Assembly: GCF_001625215.2 (NCBI RefSeq)
Contig: NC_030385.2
Coordinates: 45,967,598 to 46,031,597 of the forward strand
Reading direction: 5' to 3'
DNA from: Daucus carota subsp. sativus
Taxonomy: Eukaryota > Streptophyta > Magnoliopsida > Apiales > Apiaceae
Length of the DNA: 64,000 nucleotides
Positions 3,371-62,238 of the stretch are shown piece by piece; the first letter of the stretch is position 1; each line of letters starts with the position of its first letter. Made by a program: the position numbers and the translations under genes. The notes under the pieces were generated by a model that was not told the origin of the DNA, made no database searches, and was given only the letters and a program-made list of their open reading frames with translations.

Positions 3371-3958
3371 ATGACAATAATAAATCTAAATTCATTCAGT
3401 TGGGTGTTTATAAAAATCTTGGGCGAACTAATTACGATGATTAAAGTGATAGGTATTGTTGTACTTTCGATATTTGGCATCTTCACGACGTTGCTATTCA
3501 GTTGTCATCTCTATTTTGGAGCGTTTGATTATTTCATAGATTGCTGTTGCTGTTGTTTTCGTCGTAAATCTACCGATCATACTACGGCGGAAACGACTCC
3601 CACGGCTACGGCAGCGGCTCCGTCGCGGCATAGGCCTCCGCAAGCTGTTTATCCTGACCTTGAAAAGGGTCGAAGCAATGTTAATGTTGGCAATACTAGG
3701 GCTAAACCTTATGTGACAAGTGGTGGAGGTGGTAGTAGGTATAGTGGTGGTGGGTATGGTGGCGATGGATATAGTGGTGGGGGGTACCATGGTGGTGGTT
3801 ATGGTGGAGGCGGTGGTGATGGGGGAGGTGCGCATGGAGGTGGTGGCGGAGATGGGGGAGGTGGAGGGGGTGGAGGAGGAGACGGGGGAGGTGGCGGTGG
3901 AGATGGAGGAGGGGGCGGCGGAGGGGGTGGTGGAGGCGGAGGAGGTGGCGGGGACTGA
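3371..3958 (+). CDS. Glycine-rich one-pass membrane protein, array member 1 (YPDLEKG family)
   Basis: A 195-residue protein I cannot match to a named family. An N-terminal hydrophobic segment (about residues 24-50) is followed at once by a run of five Cys (CCCCC, about 58-62) and basic FRRK, a typical palmitoylated juxtamembrane pattern. Next comes a Thr/Ala/Pro linker, the motif VYPDLEKG (about 92-99), and from about residue 117 a tail of Gly with regular Tyr, Ser, His and Asp (SRYSGGGYGGDGYSGG and then GGGD repeats). Met23 (base 3437) may be the real start, because other members begin right before the membrane segment. It heads a same-strand array of seven members. The base bias is driven by GGN codons. 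A cell wall-plasma membrane or structural role is only inference from glycine-rich proteins in general. Expression is not provable here, but the long frame and shared motif support a real gene. Confidence 0.7.
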   Translation: MTIINLNSFSWVFIKILGELITMIKVIGIVVLSIFGIFTTLLFSCHLYFGAFDYFIDCCCCCFRRKSTDHTTAETTPTATAAAPSRHRPPQAVYPDLEKGRSNVNVGNTRAKPYVTSGGGGSRYSGGGYGGDGYSGGGYHGGGYGGGGGDGGGAHGGGGGDGGGGGGGGGDGGGGGGDGGGGGGGGGGGGGGGGD

Positions 3959-7402: not shown

Positions 7403-7909
7403 ATGTCGTTTGGTACGGGAAACATTATTATCGTTTCGGTTTTTTGCTTTCCTATAATAGTGGGGGTGCTATGGTATACTATTATGAACTCAGAAATATG
7501 TCTTGCTATGATTTATTATTGCTCTTGTTGTTGCTGTCGTAGCTGTAATAAATCAAGAAATACTACGGCGGCGGCGAGTTCAAGAACGACGGCCCCTCAG
7601 CTGCAAAGTCCACCAACTATATATCCTGACCTTGAAAAGGGCCAGACTGATAGTGCAAGTAGGTATAGTGGCGGTGGTGGGTATGGTGGCGATGGGTATA
7701 GTGGTGGCGGACATTTTGGTGGCGGTGGATTTGGCGGTGGCGGTGGATTTGGTGGTGGTGGAGATGGTGGAGGAGGACATGGAGGTGGAGGAGGACATGG
7801 AGGTGGCGGTGGGCATGGAGGTGGAGGAGGTGGTGGGGGAGGAGATGGAGGAGGTGGAGGAGGAGGTGGCGGTGGAGGTGGTGGCGATGGAGGAGGCGGT
7901 GGGTGCTAA
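7403..7909 (+). CDS. Glycine-rich one-pass membrane protein, array member 3 (YPDLEKG family)
   Basis: A 168-residue protein. After MSFGTGN comes a hydrophobic segment (about 8-28), then MIYYCSCCCCRSCNKSR (about 36-52), a Cys cluster followed by basic residues that suggests lipidation at the inner membrane face. A short Ala/Thr/Pro linker leads to IYPDLEKG (about 73-80), SASRYSGGGG, and a Gly tail with Tyr, Phe, His and Asp spaced regularly (GGGHFGGGGFGGG, GGGHGGGG). The order of parts is identical to member 1, 3.4 kb upstream, although the membrane segments differ. The ATG is preceded by a purine-rich leader and a TATA box at 7329. No known enzyme or transporter motif is present. A function in the cell wall-membrane interface is only a guess from composition. 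Confidence 0.75.
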   Translation: MSFGTGNIIIVSVFCFPIIVGVLWYTIMNSEICLAMIYYCSCCCCRSCNKSRNTTAAASSRTTAPQLQSPPTIYPDLEKGQTDSASRYSGGGGYGGDGYSGGGHFGGGGFGGGGGFGGGGDGGGGHGGGGGHGGGGGHGGGGGGGGGDGGGGGGGGGGGGGDGGGGGC

Positions 7910-43366: not shown

Positions 43367-45121
43367 TCACTCAGAAGAGATGATAATCCTAGCTCCGCCA
43401 ATGGTAACTTTACCTTTGCCGGTTCTCGGAACCAAAGCCACCACCAGAGTTTCGTCACCATCAGCATCCAAATCTTCCAGAAGCTCATTAATCCCGAAAG
43501 TAAGAGAAGCTTTTGTTCTTAACTTAGATACGGAAGGTACATTTGAAAACGTTCCAGCAAACTCTGCATTGTTAGGTCCGCTCTCAATCTCATCTTCGTC
43601 ATTGATATAAACATCAAATTTAACATACTCGTTTCCATCATACTCAATTCCATCTATCACCAATATCTCCTCCGCGTCCTCCTTTTCCTCTTTGCTCCTC
43701 GACTTCTTAGGCCTTGGAACGGTCACTTTAATCAAACCGTCCAGCACTTTGGGAAAGACCTCGTCCGCTTTGGGGAAGACTTCCGCAGCATTCGCCACCC
43801 CGGCCTTCTTTCGAGGTGCCTTCCGTGGTGCCCGAGAGTTGAGCCATTCGAGAGGAACTTTCTCGTAATCGTATCCCAGCTTCGAAGAATCAAGACAGTC
43901 TCGAATCTTGACTCTCACCAGCTTCTCGTTCTCATCATAGAACAGAAAAGCCGAGTCCAAATAATCAGTCTGATCGAAATCTTTGCGATTTTTGCCCGGG
44001 AGGCGCTTCCAAATATTCCACAATCTATCCACATTCGCATGATGAGAATAGAAGATTGGGTCTCGACCAGCCGAATAGAATCGTCCCATGTCCTCTCCAT
44101 TAATTTGGTTTCGGTCCCCCATTAGTACGTGCACCGCGGTATGTGGTTGTCTCTCTATCGTCCCAGGTCCATTAATCTGAGCATCTCCCCCACGGTAGAC
44201 TTGTCCAAAGAACAATGTAGGAGTCCTCGCACTCACCATCGATGTATACATCAAACTCTTATTCGATTCGATAAGTTGCTTGCCGACAGGACTTACATAG
44301 TTCGCCGCATCCTTATAATCGTAGTTGAGATCCATCTTTAATTGGCTATCGTCATTCCGTAGTTTATCATAGAGCGGAGAGTCCCGATTGTTGAACATGT
44401 CAGGAACCGAGACCCCGGCCTTCGCATCCCAGTTCCAATACGGTATCGCAAAATCCGGATCCCCGATGAGTTTTCCCAATATTCTCTCGTAAAAGTACAA
44501 GTACCATCTGTGAAACGGGAAGAACAGCCAGCTGAAATGGACGTCGATTTTCGCATTCGGGAAGCCAACCATTTCGTAAGCGGAGTCACAATAAGCGCAA
44601 TGAATCGCAGCTTGTTGTGCGAAGCTATGCGGATGTTCATTCGGCAGAGATCTCATAATTTTCAGCGCCTTATTATACTTCTCAACATACTTCCTGTTCG
44701 CCAAATGAGCCGCTGGCCTAGTCCGCAAGGATCTGTATTCGGGCAGAACATAATCACTTATGTTCGGATTCGGGGGAGGGCAGCATTTTTGATCTTTCAC
44801 GTTCGTGCAGCTCGGCAAAGTGCCTGCCGTGCTACAATTCGTCGCGTCCACAGGTGCGGCGAACGCGTCTTGACGCACCGCAGCTGAACCGTATAAGCCT
44901 CCCAGACCTACAAGCACATCTCTCCGGTCCAATTTAGACTCGCTCCGCGCCTTGTTCTCGTCTTCTTGTTCTTTGGCAGCTCTGCATGACAATGTTTTCC
45001 TAAAATTTATATGTTTACGGTTTGGGCGGTTTAACAAAAACCGGGTGGCTGAGGATTTTTCGGCTGCGGTAGAATTTGCGTAAAAATGTGAAGTGCAGGT
45101 TGGTAACTGAAGAGAGGCCAT
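43367..45121 (-). CDS. PPO: Polyphenol oxidase, plastid/thylakoid lumen type, intronless (copy 1)
   Basis: 584 residues; it oxidises o-diphenols to quinones. A Ser-rich transit peptide (1-46) is followed by a twin-Arg lumen signal (DRRDVLVGLGGLYGS…AFAAP, 65-90). Tyrosinase domain: CuA ligands H174 (IHCAYC), H195 and H204 (FPFHRW), with Cys178 placed for the Cys-His thioether; CuB ligands H327, H331 and H361 (YSHHANVDRLW); gatekeeper Phe348. The KFDV domain follows (VKFDV 500-504), with the C-terminal GKVTIGGARIIIS end. One oddity: after H331 the common VHxW becomes VHVL, so L333 replaces the usual Trp near CuB (copy 2 keeps HIWTGD). Reading frame intact. It is the leftmost member of a four-locus PPO cluster, all on the minus strand. 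PPOs are commonly wound- and jasmonate-induced, but nothing in this promoter proves that here. Confidence 0.95.
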   Translation of the reverse strand: MASLQLPTCTSHFYANSTAAEKSSATRFLLNRPNRKHINFRKTLSCRAAKEQEDENKARSESKLDRRDVLVGLGGLYGSAAVRQDAFAAPVDATNCSTAGTLPSCTNVKDQKCCPPPNPNISDYVLPEYRSLRTRPAAHLANRKYVEKYNKALKIMRSLPNEHPHSFAQQAAIHCAYCDSAYEMVGFPNAKIDVHFSWLFFPFHRWYLYFYERILGKLIGDPDFAIPYWNWDAKAGVSVPDMFNNRDSPLYDKLRNDDSQLKMDLNYDYKDAANYVSPVGKQLIESNKSLMYTSMVSARTPTLFFGQVYRGGDAQINGPGTIERQPHTAVHVLMGDRNQINGEDMGRFYSAGRDPIFYSHHANVDRLWNIWKRLPGKNRKDFDQTDYLDSAFLFYDENEKLVRVKIRDCLDSSKLGYDYEKVPLEWLNSRAPRKAPRKKAGVANAAEVFPKADEVFPKVLDGLIKVTVPRPKKSRSKEEKEDAEEILVIDGIEYDGNEYVKFDVYINDEDEIESGPNNAEFAGTFSNVPSVSKLRTKASLTFGINELLEDLDADGDETLVVALVPRTGKGKVTIGGARIIISSE

Positions 45122-45678: not shown

Positions 45679-46117
45679 TACTAATTTTATATATTTCTCA
45701 GTTTTCTTTTTAGTTTTTACTTAAAATGAGCATGTATCACATTGTTGGCCGTGTATCACATTGGTACGTCGTAATGTCTTTTCTGGGAGGATACGGTTGT
45801 CAAATTGAAATGGTTCTTGTTCACTCACGGGAAATTTCTGTTTCTTGCGGTCCTACTCTTGTTTGATGCTTCTTTATTTCTTCTGAAACTTTGTTTGATT
45901 CTGTTTACTGATATTTCTCATATTTTTTTCTTATATGACATGGATGAATTGCACTGTAATTTAGCGTAAACTAAGCGAACTAGTTTATGTCATAATTTTA
46001 AAGTGAGAATATTAGCTTTAGGTGATGGATTCTCTTAAAATATTAGTGAAGTTTTTTTAGCTTAACTATGATACACATAAATTTGATTTTCATTTTTGTA
46101 ACAAGAAAAATTTTTTA

Positions 46118-46379
46118 CTCCCTCCGTCCCTATTTAGTTGTCATATTTCTATTTTTATCGGTCAAATTGACTACTTTTTGACCAAAAATTATAATTCACT
46201 TTTTCATTATTTTAAAAAACTGAAAATTACATCCTAAAATAAATAAAAAGTTGTTTACGATGACATATTTTTATATTTTTTTTAATTGATAAAATATTAA
46301 TAAATTTCAGTTAAACTTTGATCAATTTGACGAGTACAAACTCAAATGTCAAAACTAAAAAAGGATGAGGAGGAGAGAG
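46118..46379. mobile_element. Stowaway-type miniature element
   Basis: TA-flanked ends CTCCCTCCGTCCCTATTTAG and the decayed partner CTAAAAAAGGATGAGGAGGAGAGAG. Internal GGTCAAATTGACTA / TTGATCAATTTGACGAG. Non-coding. Confidence 0.65.
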
Positions 46380-46559
46380 TAATTACTCTCGCATCGGCTT
46401 TAATGTATGTTATCACTATTCTATGTCATAAACTAAGCGAACTAATCTATGTCATAATTTTATACAGTGGACTCCGAAGTGAACGCTTCCACAGTTCACG
46501 TTCACCCAAAGGTGGGAATATTAATCTATGTAGCAAAGCCAGCAAACATATGTAAGGGG

Positions 46560-47184
46560 GGCCAAAAAAAATTTCTTCCATACATTAAATTTTTTCATCA
46601 GCACTGTAAAATATTCATTATAAAATAAATACAAAAATACTAGTAAAAAAATTATAGTAGAGCTTGCGTTCTTTTAAATCAGGAAATCAAATTTATAATT
46701 GTGTCAGGAAATCAAATTTATAATTGTGTCAACAAAAATTATAACTGTGGTACGATAAATGTGGGTTATTGTAGTAAAGTAAATTTATATTATATTAAAA
46801 ATTATATTTTACATGTAATATTATTTTCTATTGCACAATTAAAATCCATATAAAAAATAATTTTTTATATCTATTATTCAAATAAATTTATTTAATATTT
46901 GGAGTTAGCAAATTTATTATATCGAGTTTGAAAAAAATATTTTTATTATATCTTGTATGGTTTCTTCTTGTTTTAAAATAATAGGAGAAGTCTTTGTGTT
47001 TGAATAGAATTAGGGGGCAAATGTTAATCAATCATTATAGATTAATATTTTATTGATAACCTTAAATTTTCAAATATATAGTTGCAAAACGATATTTTTA
47101 AATTATATTTTACATGTATTAAAATATATATTGTATTAAATATGAAATTATGTATATGTGTATGTATGTATGTATGTATGTATG

Positions 47185-47215
<31 letters not shown>

Positions 47216-47490
47216 GTATATATGTAAATATTAATGATTTTTTTTCATATGATACCTCTTTTTTTTCAAAAAAAATCCCTTATGATGGAAGAAAAAAAAA
47301 CCTCTTTTTTAAATAAATGATTCTTTTGATAACGATACCTCTATTTCTTCGGAAGAGCTCTTTTTATTTACATAATTGATAAATTATTCAAATTAATCTT
47401 ACTGGTCTAGAAAAAAATTCTTAATAAAGAAACCTCAATAAAATCTTAATTAGAAGATATTAAAGTATATATTTTATTAAACATAAAAAA

Positions 47491-47525
<35 letters not shown>

Positions 47526-48400
47526 GCATCTAAAATAAATTATAAATAATTTAGTAACTTAAATTATAAGTAAGAAATTATCCGCCTCTTATAAAATTTT
47601 TCTTGGCGACTTCTAAAAATTTAAAATAGATTTAATGTAAGTATTTTTCACTATAATAATATCAATCTTAATAATCAACTAAAAATTGTAGTAATATAAA
47701 GGTGAATCGATCAGAGTAGTAATATTTTATTGAATAAACATATTTTCAAATATATAGTTAAAAATAATATTCATAAATTATATTTTACATGTAATATTTT
47801 ATTGAATAATTAAAATAAAATCATATATTTTATATTTACTATTCAAATAAATTTATATAATATCCTGAGTTAATAATTTTATTAAACTAATTTCAAATAA
47901 AATAATGCTATATATCTTGTAAAATATATTTTAATTTCGAAATAGTAGTAGCAGAGTTTGTGATTGAATAGTAAAAATTAATATTTTATCGAAAAACATG
48001 TATTTTCAAATATATATGTTGGGAATAATATTTATAAATTATAATTTACATGTATTATTATTTTCTATCGAACAATTAATATCTACATAATAAAATAAAA
48101 TACATTGATATATTTGCGATTATCTGATATAGTAAATTAATATTTTATTATATAAATAAAATTTTCAAATATATAATTGAAAAAATATTTGTAAGTTATA
48201 TATAATATTATTTTTATCGAACAATTACAATCTATTATGTAAAAACTAAAATATATTTGATATATATATTATTTAAAGAAATTTATTTATACATAAAGTT
48301 AACAATTTTATTATGTCAAGTTTAAAAAAACAATTTTATTATATATTATATATTTTCTTTTTGTTTAGAGTTGTAGAATTATTTTCATTTCAAATCAGTA
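46560..48400. repeat. AT-rich array of degenerate repeats, unit about 250-350 bp
   Basis: At least four times, and in the same order, occur: TTATTTTCTAT(T/C)G(A/C)ACAATTA, (T/C)AAATAAATTTAT, GTTA(G/A)CAA/AATTTTATTA(T/A), TTGTGTTTGAATAG / TTGTGATTGAATAG, TAATATTTTAT(T/C)GA and TTTTCAAATATATA. Imbedded are a TATG/TG/TA compound microsatellite (47161-47226) and an AT run (47493-47522). No coding capacity. It may be the core of a hAT-like element, since GCCAGCAAACAT…AAGGGGGGCCAAAAAA occurs both before (46537) and after (48537) it. Confidence 0.55.
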
Positions 48401-48526
48401 AAATTAGGAAATAGCCTAAATAGTAACCGCTATGCTCTAGTAACTGGTCCACACATAAAGCACGTCTTCCTTCTCCATCACTTGCACACTCCAGGAATTG
48501 TGAAAAGGACCTTGCAAAGTTAGTAT

Positions 48527-49456
48527 CAGGGACGAAGCCAGCAAACATCCACAAGGGGGGCCAAAAAAATTTCTTCGGCACACTAAAATTTTTCGTTAAC
48601 GCAATAAAATATTCAATATAAAATAAATACAAAAGTACTAGTAAAAAAAAATTATAGTAAAACTTTGCGTTCTTTTAAATCAAGATATCAAATATATAAT
48701 TGTGTCAACTAAAATATTTAGCTATTTATCTTCAAATATATATAAGTATAAAATGATCGGGAAACTCATCATAATAACTCTAAGTTATACTGTAATCTTT
48801 AATTAGCAATTAATACACATTAAATGAAATTATATTATGAATAGAAGCAAGTAAAATTTTAACAATACCTCAAAAACTACATATTATGCCTATTAACCTT
48901 ACAAAAACAACATATGATTATTTAGAAGATGACAAGTTATAGTTTAAACAAGTAAAAATGTTACTTGGATGATGAAATTTGAATTGACGATGAGTAAAAT
49001 CAATATTAATATTAATATTAATTAAAAAACTGATAATACATGAGGACTAAATCTATTTTACGATAATGAGAAGTGAGGTATAAGTTTCTGAGACCTCCAC
49101 CAAAGATTCTTGTTTTTTTAAAAGAACCATATTGATGTTTAACTTTATCACATATTACATTCTACCTTTTTTTAAAAATAGTATAATTGTATGTATATCC
49201 ATATTTTTGTTTGTTTTTATTTTTAAATTCGGTCTAATACATGAATTAGAGAAATCTAAGAATTAAAATGTTATTTTACAATGTTAAATATTTTTTAGGA
49301 GCGAACAGATATTTTTTTTAGGGGGGCCAAATTTTTATATTTATATAAATATGTAGATAAAATACAATTTTTTCAAAATTATATAACACAAATTATAACA
49401 TTATGGAAACCCTAGGGGGGGCCATGGCCCCTTGTGGCCCCTATGTAGCGATGTCC
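48527..49456. mobile_element. hAT-like element ('gggacgaagccag' ends)
   Basis: Left AGGGACGAAGCCAGC and right TAGCGATGTCCCT are short inverted ends. Subterminal G-rich GGGGGGCCAAA / GGGGGGGCCATGGCCCC blocks are common in plant hAT elements. I could not find a clean 8-bp target duplication, so the borders are approximate. Confidence 0.4.
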
Positions 49457-49841
49457 CTCCTATGTAGTTTTTATTGTTGCCTGTATCCTTGCGCAAGGAC
49501 CCGAGATCCATTTGAATTTCAAATTTCACAAGAAATAGTACGGTATTTATCTTAAATGCCATAAAATCACATGTGAATGTCTATCATGTCGGTAATAATT
49601 TACTTCGCTTGTATACTGGGTGTGGAGTCTGTGGACGCATAAATTAATGATCTGTTTCAAAGTGCAGTTAAAAATTATTGTGGTATCAGTAAAAATGTTG
49701 ATAAAAGATATTATAAAAGTAATTTCTGAATATATATATATGTGTGTGTAAAATAAAGATATTGTACGTAAGTATTAAATTATGGATATTCTATTCATGT
49801 TTTATTGAATATAAAACTTTGCAGAAAAATAGAGCTGTCAG

Positions 49842-50312
49842 CAGTGTTCTAAAAGTCGGCGATTAATCGGGATTAATCGCCGATTAATCGTTGTTCGGTC
49901 GGTCACCGTCTCGATTAAGCGTTAATCGGTGAAAAAATCGTTTTTTCTGAAAATCGGGATTAATCGGTCAAAAGTCGGGATTAATCGGAAAAAATCGGTC
50001 AAAAATCGGTGAATTTAAAAAAATTTAAAAAAAAGTGAAAAAATTTTAAAATTTTAAATTTAATTTTAAATAAAATAAAAGGCACCGAAAGACAAAACAC
50101 ATAAATTAAATTTGTTTTTATTACGTTTCACTCTTTTAATATTAACTTCCAAACTCTAATTACTTAAATTTGCAATATATATTCCTTAGCAGATTGAATC
50201 AAATATATGAGATGACTAGGCTTGTATATGTATATAAAGGCATGTTTTGGGTTATAAAAAATCATTACTCTTTTGATTTTATATGATTATAAATTTATAC
50301 TATATATAATTT

Positions 50313-52577: not shown

Positions 52578-54383
52578 TCAAGAAGAGATGATAATCTTGG
52601 CGCCGCCAATGGTGACTTTGCCTTTCCCGGTTCTCGGAACCAAGGCCACCACCACATTGTCGTCGTCATCGGCACCAACGTCCTCCAGAAGCTCGGTTAT
52701 CCCCAAACTCATGGACACTTTCACTCTATTGTTTGATATGGATGGTACATTTGAATATGATCCCGCAAACTCTGCATTGTTAGGTCCGCTCTCAACCTCA
52801 TCTTCGTCGTTGAGAAACACATCAAATTTGACGTACTCGTTTCCATCGTATTCAATTCCATCGATCACGAGGATCTCCTCTGCGTCCTCTTTCTCCTCCT
52901 GGCTCCTCGACTTCTTCGGCCTGGGAATTGAGACTTTGATTAGGCCGTTCAATACTTGGGGAAGGACTTCACTAGCATTCGGAAAGACCTGAGGAGCTTC
53001 GGCTGCATTCGCGACCCCTGCCTTGTTTCCGCGGCCCTTGCCTTTACCCTTAGCTTTCGGGGGAGGCCGAGAGCCGAGCCACGGAAGAGGAACGTCCTGG
53101 TAAACATACCCCATCTTCTTCGTATCGACACAGTCCCGGACCTTGACTCTCACGAGCTTCTCATTCTCGTCGTAGAACAGAAAAGCCGAATCCAACCAGT
53201 CCGGATCGTCGATGTCTTTGCGGTTTTTACCAGGGAGCGTCTTCCAAATATTCCACATTCGGTCCACATTCGCATGATGCGAATAGAAAAGCGGATCTCG
53301 ACCCGCCGAAAAGAATCTCCCCATGTCCTCACCATATTTCTGCTCGGGATCACCGGTCCATATGTGCAGCTGAGTATGCGGCTGGTTCTCAATTGCCCCG
53401 GCCGCTTTCACCTGCGCTTCTCCCCCGCGGTAGGCTCCCCCGAAGAACAGCTCAGGAGTCTTGCTGCTCGAAACCATCTGATTATACATCACTTTGTAAT
53501 TCGCCTGGATCAATTCGTCACCTACAGGACTCGGAGTCGACTTGCTATAGTTTAGATCAATTTTAAGCGGCGGCTGATGATTATCATCTCGCAACTTATC
53601 AAATAGTGGAGAGTTGTGATCTGCAAACATAGCCGGGATCGGCATCCCATCAGGCGAATCCCAGTTCCAGTAGGGAATCGCGAAAGTAGGATCACCGATC
53701 AATTTCCCCAAAATCTTCTCGTAAAAATGCAAGTACCATCTATGAAACGGGAAGAACAACCACGAGAAATGCACGTCCATTTTCACATTCGGAAAGCCCA
53801 CCATCTCATAAGCCGAGTCGCAATAAGCGCAATGAATCGCCGCTTGCTGCGCGAAGCTATGAGGATGGTCTTTCGGCAGAGATCGCATGATCTTCATCGC
53901 TTTGTTATACTTCTCTATATATTTGTTATCCGCCAGCTGAGCTGCTGGCCTAACCCGCAAGGGCTGATTAACCGGAAGTACGTAATCAGTTATATTCGGA
54001 TTCGGGGGAGGGCAGCAATTCGCATCTTTTATGTTCGTGCATGTCGGCAAAGTGTCTGCATTGCCGCACTTGGTAGCGTCCACCGGAGCCGCGAACGCCG
54101 CCTGACTCACGGCGGTTGTTCCATACAGACCTCCGAGACCAAGCAGAATGTCCCTCCTGTCGAACTTTCCTCCCTCCACATTCTGGAAGCTTCTAGATTT
54201 GCTCCTAGCATCTTCTTGGCTACCATCACTCTCCTTTGCGGCTCTGCATGACAGGTTTTTCGAGAAGAAACGGTTGCGTTTTTGGTGGTTCAAGAACAAT
54301 TGGGAGGTGGAGGATTTGTCAGTAGTGTTGGCGTTGGTGTGAAGATTGGCAGCTCTGAGTGGTAGGTACTGCAAAGAAGCCAT
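52578..54383 (-). CDS. PPO: Polyphenol oxidase, plastid/thylakoid lumen type, intronless (copy 2)
   Basis: 601 residues, the full family length. Transit peptide (1-46, ending NLSCRAAKE), twin-Arg lumen signal (DRRDILLGLGGLYGT…AFAAP, 75-100), paired Cys region CTNIKDANCCPPP. CuA: H184 (IHCAYC, thioether Cys188), H205, H214 (FPFHRW). CuB: H336, H340 (HTQLHIWTGD), H370 (YSHHANVDRMW), gatekeeper Phe357. The linker PPPKAKGKGKGRGNK is longer and more basic than in copy 1. The KFDV motif is at 519-522 and the C-terminus ends GKVTIGGAKIIIS. All catalytic residues are present, so it is probably an active catechol oxidase. The large plus-strand open frames across this gene come from its GC-rich coding bias. 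Monophenolase activity cannot be judged from sequence. Confidence 0.96.
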   Translation of the reverse strand: MASLQYLPLRAANLHTNANTTDKSSTSQLFLNHQKRNRFFSKNLSCRAAKESDGSQEDARSKSRSFQNVEGGKFDRRDILLGLGGLYGTTAVSQAAFAAPVDATKCGNADTLPTCTNIKDANCCPPPNPNITDYVLPVNQPLRVRPAAQLADNKYIEKYNKAMKIMRSLPKDHPHSFAQQAAIHCAYCDSAYEMVGFPNVKMDVHFSWLFFPFHRWYLHFYEKILGKLIGDPTFAIPYWNWDSPDGMPIPAMFADHNSPLFDKLRDDNHQPPLKIDLNYSKSTPSPVGDELIQANYKVMYNQMVSSSKTPELFFGGAYRGGEAQVKAAGAIENQPHTQLHIWTGDPEQKYGEDMGRFFSAGRDPLFYSHHANVDRMWNIWKTLPGKNRKDIDDPDWLDSAFLFYDENEKLVRVKVRDCVDTKKMGYVYQDVPLPWLGSRPPPKAKGKGKGRGNKAGVANAAEAPQVFPNASEVLPQVLNGLIKVSIPRPKKSRSQEEKEDAEEILVIDGIEYDGNEYVKFDVFLNDEDEVESGPNNAEFAGSYSNVPSISNNRVKVSMSLGITELLEDVGADDDDNVVVALVPRTGKGKVTIGGAKIIISS

Positions 54384-56884: not shown

Positions 56885-56999
56885 ACTCGTAACTAAATTT
56901 TCCGAAAAGACATGGTTACGCTTTTGGTGTTTCAAAAACTGCGGTGGTGTCGGTGTAAAGATGGGAAGCTCTGAGTGGTAGGTGTTGCAGAGAAGCCAT
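56885..56999 (-). pseudogene. 5' relic of a polyphenol oxidase gene
   Basis: On the minus strand ATG 56999 opens MASLQHLPLRASHLYTDTTA, clearly the transit peptide start of PPO copy 2 (MASLQYLPLRAANLHTN…), but a stop follows after 27 codons and homology ends near 56885. The upstream side (to about 57130) also matches the copy 2 promoter, including TAGGGTTTAT and TGTCTCGATCTAAACCATGCA in plus sense. No copper-binding sequence remains. Confidence 0.85.
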
Positions 57000-59993: not shown

Positions 59994-60689
59994 CTAAGAA
60001 GAAATCACGATACTAACGCTGCCAATATTGACTCTACCCTGGCCAGTTCTCGACACCAAAGCCACCACAAGATTGTCATCATCCTCGGCTCCCAAGTCCT
60101 CCAAAAGCTCACTTATTCCCAAACTCAACCGAGTTCTCACCTTCTTGCTCCTCGTCGCCGAAGGCACATTCGAAAACGCCCCCGCAAACTCCGCATTGCT
60201 AGGTCCGCTCTCGGCCTCATCTTCGTCGTTCACAAAAACATCAAACTTGACGTACTCGTTTGCATTGTATTCAATCCCTTCGATCACGAGTATCTCCTCC
60301 TCGTCTTCCTTCTCTTGTTTACTTCTCGACTTCTTGGGCCGTGGCACCGTGAATTTGACGAACTTGTCGAGCACGCTAGGGAAGATTTGGTCAGCGTTCG
60401 GAAAGACTTTAGGGTTCGAGGGTGCAGCATTTGTTAGCTTGGTATTATTTGTGGCAATGTATGAGGCTCCTGCTAGACCAAGAAGCACGTTTCTTCGATC
60501 GAATTTCAAGATACTTTGAGTGTTGACATTTTTAGACGTGAGATCAGTGGTGGTTTTGTGATCTTGGTTGGCCTTTAGGGTTGATAATGATTTTCTGATG
60601 TGGGAATTATGGTTTGTGTTTTTGTGGAGATGTGGGAATTGGAGAGGAAGAATTGTATTCATTTTGTTGGGTTTTTTTTGTTGAAACAT
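59994..60689 (-). CDS. Stand-alone PPO C-terminal (KFDV) domain protein with plastid/lumen targeting
   Basis: An intact 231-residue frame. Residues 1-60 are Asn/His/Lys/Thr-rich, plastid transit-like; KFDRRNVLLGLAGASYIA (63-80) is the twin-Arg lumen signal of PPOs, followed by NAAPSNPKVFPNADQIFPSVLD, which in full-length PPOs lies after the tyrosinase domain. Then come VPRPKKSRSKQEKEDEEE, the motif YVKFDV (146-151), and the complete KFDV-domain end (SGPSNAEFAGAFSNVP…LGISELLEDLG…LVVALVSRTGQG…VSIVIS). All of the roughly 330 residues with CuA and CuB are missing, so it cannot be an oxidase. The junction is clean and the frame open throughout, as if selected. Met10 is an alternative start. It may bind or regulate PPO in trans, or be a recent internal-deletion copy; the sequence cannot decide. 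Confidence 0.8.
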   Translation of the reverse strand: MFQQKKPNKMNTILPLQFPHLHKNTNHNSHIRKSLSTLKANQDHKTTTDLTSKNVNTQSILKFDRRNVLLGLAGASYIATNNTKLTNAAPSNPKVFPNADQIFPSVLDKFVKFTVPRPKKSRSKQEKEDEEEILVIEGIEYNANEYVKFDVFVNDEDEAESGPSNAEFAGAFSNVPSATRSKKVRTRLSLGISELLEDLGAEDDDNLVVALVSRTGQGRVNIGSVSIVISS

Positions 60690-62238
60690 TGGCTACATTT
60701 TATAGCAAATAATATTTAAAGTTTCTTTTTTCGGTTTGAAATTAAATTTTGAAGCATAAAGTCAATGCGTATCTATCCATCTAATTAACAGGAAATGTGT
60801 TGTGTGGATGTGAAATGGACACATCCACGATTTGTTACCACATATTAGATGCATTGTTCTTTCTACGCAAGTTAAAATGAGTTTTTTGCATAGTCCCACT
60901 TCTGTTTTCAAACTCGGGGATAGATGTATATATATGACGTTGTTTTAACTTATAAGTTATACGTATACAGGGTGGGTGTTTGGCGAGGAGTGTCACACTG
61001 ATAATTGGGATATGGATCACTCCGAATTTGAAAATCTTAATTCGTATTCAGAGCCGCATCGCCCATTAAGAATTGAACTTATTTATCACTTTAAATTCCG
61101 GAATCCTATATAATCATAATTTTGGGTTTTGGCTTCTAGTTTCCATGCTTTCATTCTGATTAGCAGAAGAATGACTAAGGAGTGGGGAGATGAATTCGGA
61201 CTTAAGAAAATATATACAATATCGAACTCAATATTGTGATAAAACTACCCAAAGAAGAAAGTTTTTGTTGTTCAATCGACGGCTTCATCAGCATATTACG
61301 GCAAGCTTGAGCAAAGTTTACGGAAATGGAGGAGGATACTACTACCTCCGTCCCATTTTAACTGTTTTTGACTTTTTTACACGTATTTTAAGATGTTAAA
61401 AAAATCACATCTAAACATAATTATTTCTTATAAAATTTATATCAAATAAAAGTTTAGAATCTAAACTTTTATTTAATATAAGAATTGAATTTTTTTATTA
61501 AGTGTAGATATTGTTTTTTTACACCTCAATATACGTGTCAGAAAATCAAACATCAGTTAAAATGGGACAGAGGGAGTAGGCAATAATCGGATTTAGCAAT
61601 TATAAATTCAGTTTATACTTATGATCTAAGAATTAATTTTTTCGTTCCCTATATTCCCTTATAGTCCCAACACGACTGTATATATATAACTTTAAGATTT
61701 TTATCAAATTAAACGAAAAATATGATTAACCATTATAAAGCATTTTAGTTGCCATGCGGCCCATGCATACAATCCAGAGTCTTCAGACCTCGGGTGAATT
61801 AAAGTGTTTCTGGTGGATCACGGTGTGCAAATCATCGTCTGCGATTATTCGAAATGCGCCCAAGCTGGTCTGGACATTGTGCAAGTCATTTTCCGGGATT
61901 ATTCCACGTGCACGTAAGCTGACCCGTACACCCGATATAACGTATGAAAGGGAAAATAAAATACTGTAAAGGACTCCAGTAGCTGCAGAGATCGCAAATA
62001 CAAAAATAATGATGCTTGCAAGACAAAATGACTACAGACATGGGCAGATCTCGGAAGAGGCACGGGGGACACATACCCCCCTAAAATTTTTTTTACATTT
62101 TTTCATCATTTTAAATTTTACAAAATTATAGAAATATCTTCCCAAAATTTGAAAATATATAAGTGTTTTCCGAAAATTTGCTTGGTGCCCCCTAAGATTT
62201 TGCGTCTAGATCCGCCCTCACTGCATACATCAATCAAT
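60690..62238. other. Intergenic, no gene seen
   Basis: Contains a Stowaway element (61345-61576) and, at about 62041-62218, a decayed element with ends GGGCAGATCTCGG and CTAGATCCGCCC. Small open frames here have no family features. Confidence 0.5.
61345..61576. mobile_element. Stowaway-type miniature element
   Basis: Ends CCTCCGTCCCATTTTAACTG and CAGTTAAAATGGGACAGAGG followed by GAG, flanked by TA. Interior pairs as TTTAGAATCTAAA near the centre. Non-coding. Confidence 0.8.

Follow-up and report, generated by a model that had tools for sequence, protein, structure and literature searches.

A 231-codon frame on the minus strand at positions 59994–60689 of the window (the whole 64,000-nucleotide stretch of Daucus carota DNA analysed here) encodes the C-terminal KFDV domain of polyphenol oxidases (PPOs) without their copper domain and looks maintained by selection. 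Our preferred reading, to which we give somewhat less than an even chance, is that this KFDV-only gene (KO) is a maintained PPO derivative and that its product is a free cap that would dock in trans on PPOs of the thylakoid lumen. The frame has no internal stop in the list of open reading frames; the sequence-only reading had placed an intact KFDV-only frame at exactly these positions, leaving its strand unstated. The sole Pfam match of KO is PPO1_KFDV (PF12143; E 1.9e-47, 161 bits against a cut-off of 26), which extends over residues 103–227 of 231 (60009–60383, minus strand) and profile positions 1–128 of 130, i.e. a complete domain. In the same search, Tyrosinase (PF00264), which carries the six copper histidines, gave no match up to E = 1 and DWL (PF12142) was not found. 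KO thus has the KFDV part of a plant polyphenol oxidase and lacks the Tyrosinase and DWL parts that define the enzyme. The absence of the copper domain had been recognized earlier, with a loss put at about 330 residues; comparison with the neighbouring enzyme PPO-B instead gives about 362 residues (99 to 461 of PPO-B), DWL included. A search of NCBIfam returned one match far under its cut-off (ribosomal L21, 14 bits against 43.7), and a single search for relatives among viral contigs yielded 33 pattern stretches, none of which was confirmed. The AlphaFold model of KO, for which three sequences were used, has low confidence (mean pLDDT of 48.8, with ten-residue means of 58–75 from residue 101 and below 50 over residues 1–99) and no claim is based on it.

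Translation of KO probably starts at codon 10 (60662), giving a protein of 222 aa and a coding sequence of 669 bp including the stop (59994–60662, minus strand). A TATA box (TATAAAA; 60698–60704, minus strand) lies 15 nt before the first ATG, too near for that ATG to be served by it; its distance to the ATG of codon 10 is 42 nt. The corresponding distance is 46 nt in PPO-B, and the nearest TATA box of the other neighbouring enzyme, PPO-A, is at 97 nt. Codons 1–9 (60663–60689, minus strand) would be an in-frame upstream extension that probably lies 5' of the transcription start.

The two full-length PPOs, PPO-B (601 aa; 52578–54383) and PPO-A (584 aa; 43367–45121), are the candidate partners of the KO product. 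PPO-A and PPO-B each match Tyrosinase (E values of 3.2e-37 and 3.2e-36 for the two), DWL and KFDV; they are encoded on the minus strand, as is KO, which is the most upstream of the three. A similarity search also detected a PPO-B-like copy of which a broken 5' fragment is left (56894–56999, minus strand); it keeps the start codon and the first codons and is then lost, contrasting with the intact KO of the same cluster. Its promoter pieces are 78% (88 nt) and 86% (43 nt) identical to those of PPO-B, and the first 55 nt of coding sequence are 85% identical, so that the promoter of PPO-B is clearly common to this fragment. The region upstream of KO has a weak 41-nt match to the upstream region of PPO-A (E 0.026) and no other upstream match to its neighbours, and the region downstream of KO has weak matches to PPO-A (E 0.007). 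A copper domain encoded by a separate nearby exon of KO was considered and not adopted: a translated search of the remaining window with all three proteins recovered the fragment at 56.9 kb as two pieces, and its three further matches had E values of 0.34–0.51.

Several other features of the window may be mentioned. The stretch 46001–50000, between PPO-A and PPO-B, is rich in A+T: its two 2-kb steps have a G+C of 0.21 and 0.26, and the other 30 steps range from 0.28 to 0.44. Upstream of KO, a MITE-like element (61339–61579) has 38-nt terminal inverted repeats that are 82% complementary and an inner 22-nt palindrome; its CTCCGTCCC-type ends resemble those of Stowaway elements. Two similar glycine-rich frames on the plus strand (3371–3958 and 7403–7909), apparently a tandem pair, share a YPDLEKG motif and long GGGGDGGG tails.

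By local alignment, the N-terminal part of KO is homologous to the transit region of the PPOs (score of 89 against PPO-B, the best of 2000 shuffles reaching 55, and of 52 against PPO-A, the best of 2000 shuffles reaching 48). Together with the Pfam result, these scores support the earlier claim that the targeting region and the KFDV domain have stayed in frame. The putative stromal transit-peptide part comprises 54 residues (60501–60662, minus strand; 24% S+T, 12 K/R/H and 2 acidic residues). A predicted twin-arginine lumen signal (60426–60506, minus strand), recognized by homology, consists of KFDRRN, the hydrophobic core VLLGLAGASYIA and the end TNA/AP. The twin arginines and the hydrophobic core are kept, with a hydropathy of 1.88 compared with 1.49 in PPO-A and 1.28 in PPO-B. 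The homology and the twin-arginine core suggest that the product may be imported into plastids and targeted to the lumen. However, the lumen cleavage motif has changed from AFA/AP in the enzymes to TNA/AP (AxA to TNA), which counts against the free-cap model.

The fusion junction (codons AAT GCT GCA CCC; 60420–60431, minus strand), compared by eye with both PPOs, reads KFDRRNVLLGLAGASYIATNNTKLTNAAPSNPKVFPNADQ. In the enzymes, the lumen cleavage site has FAAPVD and the linker has GVANAAEAPQVFP, which in PPO-B follows about 362 residues further on. The AAT GCT GCA of KO corresponds to Asn-Ala-Ala of the linker and its Ala-Ala-Pro to the lumen site, the overlapping Ala-Ala being common to both ends. 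This arrangement is consistent with an in-frame deletion at a short homology, in sequences that are too diverged for proof. According to the available part of PMC6563526, the apple enzyme MdPPO1 cleaves itself between Ser366 and Val370. The phmmer alignment sets residues 90–95 of KO (231-aa numbering) against the Ala-Ser-Ser-Ser-Lys-Val cleavage stretch of MdPPO1, with a numbering offset of 2 that was fixed by matching the residues named in that part of the paper. As the junction joins a lumen cleavage site to a cut site of the MdPPO1 type, the mature KO product is expected to be practically the C-terminal domain that is set free naturally; without its lumen signal, it is predicted to have 143 aa, 15.6 kDa and a computed pI of 4.6. 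Both PPO-A and PPO-B carry a long, basic, lysine-rich linker with KAGVANAAE that resembles the self-cleavage region of MdPPO1; the linker of PPO-B aligns with it (NKAGVANAA against KKLGVAHAA) and that of PPO-A is similar. From this likeness, PPO-A and PPO-B may be self-cleaving, i.e. self-activating, types.

A comparison of KO with the KFDV domains of its neighbours, which the sequence-only reading had named as a check, reveals constraint. Over 136 aligned KFDV codons, KO has a pairwise dN/dS of 0.147 and 0.157 with the two PPOs, and the value for PPO-A against PPO-B is 0.134; these values are rough because dS is high (0.89–1.35). Differences at first, second and third codon positions amount to 23, 22 and 67 between KO and PPO-A and to 31, 20 and 61 between KO and PPO-B. 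In a three-branch codon model, omega is estimated at 0.143 for KO and 0.141 for the enzyme branches. A KO branch fixed at omega = 1 is worse by 12.5 log units and is rejected (twice this difference is about 25 for one degree of freedom, for which a hand calculation gives p about 6e-7). KO breaks 4 of the 56 positions common to PPO-A, PPO-B and MdPPO1, while leave-one-out counts are 3/55 for PPO-A and 5/57 for PPO-B. Among positions common to all five other domains, it breaks 2/27 (D to N and P to S), compared with 0/25 for PPO-A and 1/26 for PPO-B; the breaks of KO include LVP to LVS and IGG to IGS.

The KO branch also spans the time before the deletion, and the estimate of omega covers both periods. 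KO might then be a young functionless deletion derivative, in which the constraint predates the deletion and the frame is still open for lack of time, a reading that we consider unlikely but to be taken seriously. When the branch is split, the cost is 1.84 log units for a neutral share of 0.15 and 2.67 for one of 0.20, so that about 15% of it may be neutral by likelihood. In simulations of a neutral frame (2000 runs per level, point changes only), the probability that the start is kept and no stop appears is 0.34, 0.11 and 0.02 at 0.05, 0.1 and 0.2 substitutions per site, respectively. The open frame of 231 codons, which had been advanced as an argument against a dead gene, is thus weak by itself, as a young neutral copy could have kept it. 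Combining likelihood and simulation by hand, a neutral phase much longer than 0.06 per site is unlikely. The altered cleavage motif and the broken fragment at 56.9 kb favour a young derivative, as does the production of truncated copies by PPO clusters. Such copies are numerous in Oryza, where some are short C-terminal-domain frames left over from a transposon-split gene. However, KO breaks the positions common to PPO-A, PPO-B and MdPPO1 as rarely as the enzymes do, its omega equals theirs, and it has a TATA box, a start codon, a twin-arginine signal and an in-frame join. The same codon data bear on the proposal that the RNA of KO acts rather than its protein, as a source of small RNA or a decoy for a PPO-targeting microRNA. 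In Salvia, 15 of 19 PPOs are targeted by a microRNA in their KFDV-coding region, and some 21-nt windows of KO are one base off PPO-B, but the longest exact match of KO is 14 nt with PPO-A and 16 nt with PPO-B and codon evolution keeps the protein, making such a role very improbable.

KO is not a new kind of gene, since KFDV-only genes have already been published in apple and poplar. In apple, MdKFDV01 (222 aa, 669 bp, one exon) and MdKFDV02 (230 aa, two exons) encode the KFDV domain alone with predicted plastid targeting and are located within PPO clusters, each preceding the first complete PPO of its cluster on the same strand (PMC9270298). Intact KFDV-only genes are thus found on both duplicated apple chromosomes, and the authors report homologues in numerous dicots (PMC9270298). 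From a cDNA pool of infected apple leaves, MdKFDV01, MdKFDV02 and MdPPO16 were amplified substantially and six full-length PPOs very weakly; treatment did not noticeably modulate the KFDV genes, except that MdKFDV01 changed slightly in one replicate, and reporter tests showed a variable MdKFDV02 promoter (PMC9270298). In poplar, according to the available part of PMC8501708, PtrPPO10 (247 aa) and PtrPPO12 (243 aa) have only the KFDV domain, are segmental duplicates of each other that are linked by synteny to willow and apple, and are transcribed, with high levels in flowers and seeds. The same source places PtrPPO12 in tandem with the full-length PtrPPO13 and PtrPPO10 outside any reported tandem PPO group.

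Like the members of this group, KO has KFDV as its sole Pfam domain and falls in the range of about 220–250 aa. Like MdKFDV01 and MdKFDV02, it lies upstream in a PPO cluster and precedes the first full-length PPO on the same strand. Counted from codon 10, it has the 222 aa and 669 bp of MdKFDV01; MdKFDV02 differs by its 230 aa in two exons, and the poplar proteins by their greater length and, for PtrPPO10, by the lack of a tandem PPO group. The intact genes on both duplicated apple chromosomes and the poplar duplicate pair argue against KFDV-only genes such as KO being merely young and functionless. On the other side, two of the six apple PPO pseudogenes bear KFDV without a tyrosinase domain: MdPPO01, which has a stop codon and precedes MdKFDV01, and MdPPO09 (242 aa, plastid), which has an internal deletion and a frameshift (PMC9270298). 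As MdPPO09 is a pseudogene, much the same architecture as that of KO can also belong to a dead gene. Among the titles and abstracts listed from the open-licence PMC literature for these genes and for an action in trans, none dealt with the function of the apple or poplar KFDV-only genes.

The likeness of KO to the apple and poplar KFDV-only genes is descriptive, and no orthology is claimed. A tree of six C-terminal domains places KO with PPO-A and PPO-B (67–68% identity) rather than with MdPPO1 (53%). Support for this split is an ultrafast bootstrap of 90 and a standard bootstrap of 78, and the two alternatives tried have an AU p of about 0.01. If the root lies among the other plants, KO would have left the lineage of its neighbours after that lineage parted from MdPPO1. 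The tree is compatible with a parallel origin specific to this lineage, with homogenization within the cluster or, provided that MdPPO1 is a distant paralogue, with an old gene shared between the plants. A parallel origin would mean repeated invention of the same short protein, which would itself argue for its use; a lineage-specific origin may also be a young one, in which case the neutral reading would gain.

An action of KO in trans is supported by analogy with the experiments on apple MdPPO1. The best-scoring solved relatives of KO are the crystals of stand-alone C-terminal domains 6elv and 6elt (MdPPO1 Csole/Ccleaved), the released domain of a latent plant PPO. They represent the same domain as KO, with 53% identity to the 6els domain and a nearly equal N-terminal end; they differ in being a product of enzyme cleavage or artificial, whereas the KO domain has its own gene. 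According to the available text of PMC6563526, the C-terminal domain of MdPPO1 folds when produced alone, and the enzyme is inactive even once fully cleaved, presumably because the domain stays docked through 33 hydrogen bonds and 13 salt bridges. As the MdPPO1 domain stays docked, folds alone and affects the pro-enzyme, the KO domain should dock on PPO if present in the same compartment. A residue of the C-terminal domain occupies an alternative gatekeeper position over the copper site, namely Val449 in apple mdTyr, Leu447 in tomato slTyr and Ile456 in Coreopsis cgAUS; its role in plant PPOs has had no mutagenesis test according to the part of PMC10526336 that is available. By alignment, this plug residue maps to the aliphatic residue before a proline (VP/LP/IP), which is the Val of SNVP in KO, PPO-A and PPO-B. 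The caddie proteins of Streptomyces tyrosinases are likewise separate polypeptides that place a residue at the gatekeeper position (PMC10526336, available part), as proposed for the KO product; unlike it, they are required for folding and copper loading, and the likeness drawn here is one of description.

The same apple work also points to the opposite sign of action. Addition of the sole C-terminal domain to pro-MdPPO1 significantly increased the rate of self-cleavage, and the domain supplies a motif needed for the folding of the active domain (PMC6563526, available part). By analogy, the faster cleavage would count against KO being a plain inhibitor. The KO domain could thus act in trans as an activator or folding helper that displaces the tethered cap, speeds PPO self-cleavage or aids folding of the copper domain, which we regard as improbable, though not markedly so. 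The long basic linkers of PPO-A and PPO-B, similar to that of MdPPO1, are in line with this proposal, but fully cleaved MdPPO1 is still inactive, so that an extra free domain alone should not yield active enzyme. KO could also be a lumen protein independent of PPO, its beta-jelly-roll domain having been freed for another ligand such as calcium or a carbohydrate. Indeed, the available text of PMC6563526 describes a separated MdPPO1 domain that binds calcium at a site missing from the pro-enzyme, and that of PMC10526336 gives carbohydrate-binding or -processing proteins as the next closest folds of the modelled vsTyr C-terminal extension. Moreover, the location of PtrPPO10 outside a tandem PPO group and the flower and seed expression of the poplar pair do not obviously follow from a regulation of PPO, which would count against a free cap. 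However, the copper-facing residue and most family-conserved positions are kept in KO, although many of them may serve folding only, and we find independence from PPO quite unlikely. Both of these alternatives are retained because, in the plant, the effect may on balance go either way.

For the preferred free-cap reading, the following scenario can be proposed. A tandem PPO copy would have lost its copper and DWL regions in frame, giving rise to KO. The KO product would be imported into the plastid and directed to the thylakoid lumen by its twin-arginine signal, where trimming would leave a free 15.6-kDa KFDV domain, essentially the molecule that is released on PPO activation. This domain would dock on the resident PPOs at the face that bears the copper site, with the Val of SNVP over the site, and would compete with the tethered cap, so that already cleaved PPO would stay latent. 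By exchange, it may also ease the cutting of uncleaved PPO. The outcome would be a stock of cut but capped PPO, released upon tissue damage. In this scenario, capping by KO would follow the MdPPO1 precedent, and we infer the import of KO into the lumen, its expression, its binding to PPO-A and PPO-B and the net sign of its effect.

The in vivo activation of plant PPOs is unsettled (PMC10004730; PMC6563526, available part), and a separate gene for the shielding domain would offer a simple way to switch browning and defence. KO makes the question of PPO activation testable with one small protein, and adds to the published KFDV-only genes both measured constraint and a concrete mechanism that can be falsified. 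More generally, and as a conjecture that we hold with appreciable doubt, dicots may keep a dedicated gene for a trans-acting pro-domain. Such a gene may have originated repeatedly, each time with the lumen cleavage site joined in frame to the natural self-cleavage site. Its product, a free cap in the lumen, would set the latency and self-cleavage of all PPOs of the compartment, and PPO activation would depend on the cap-to-enzyme ratio and not on proteolysis alone.
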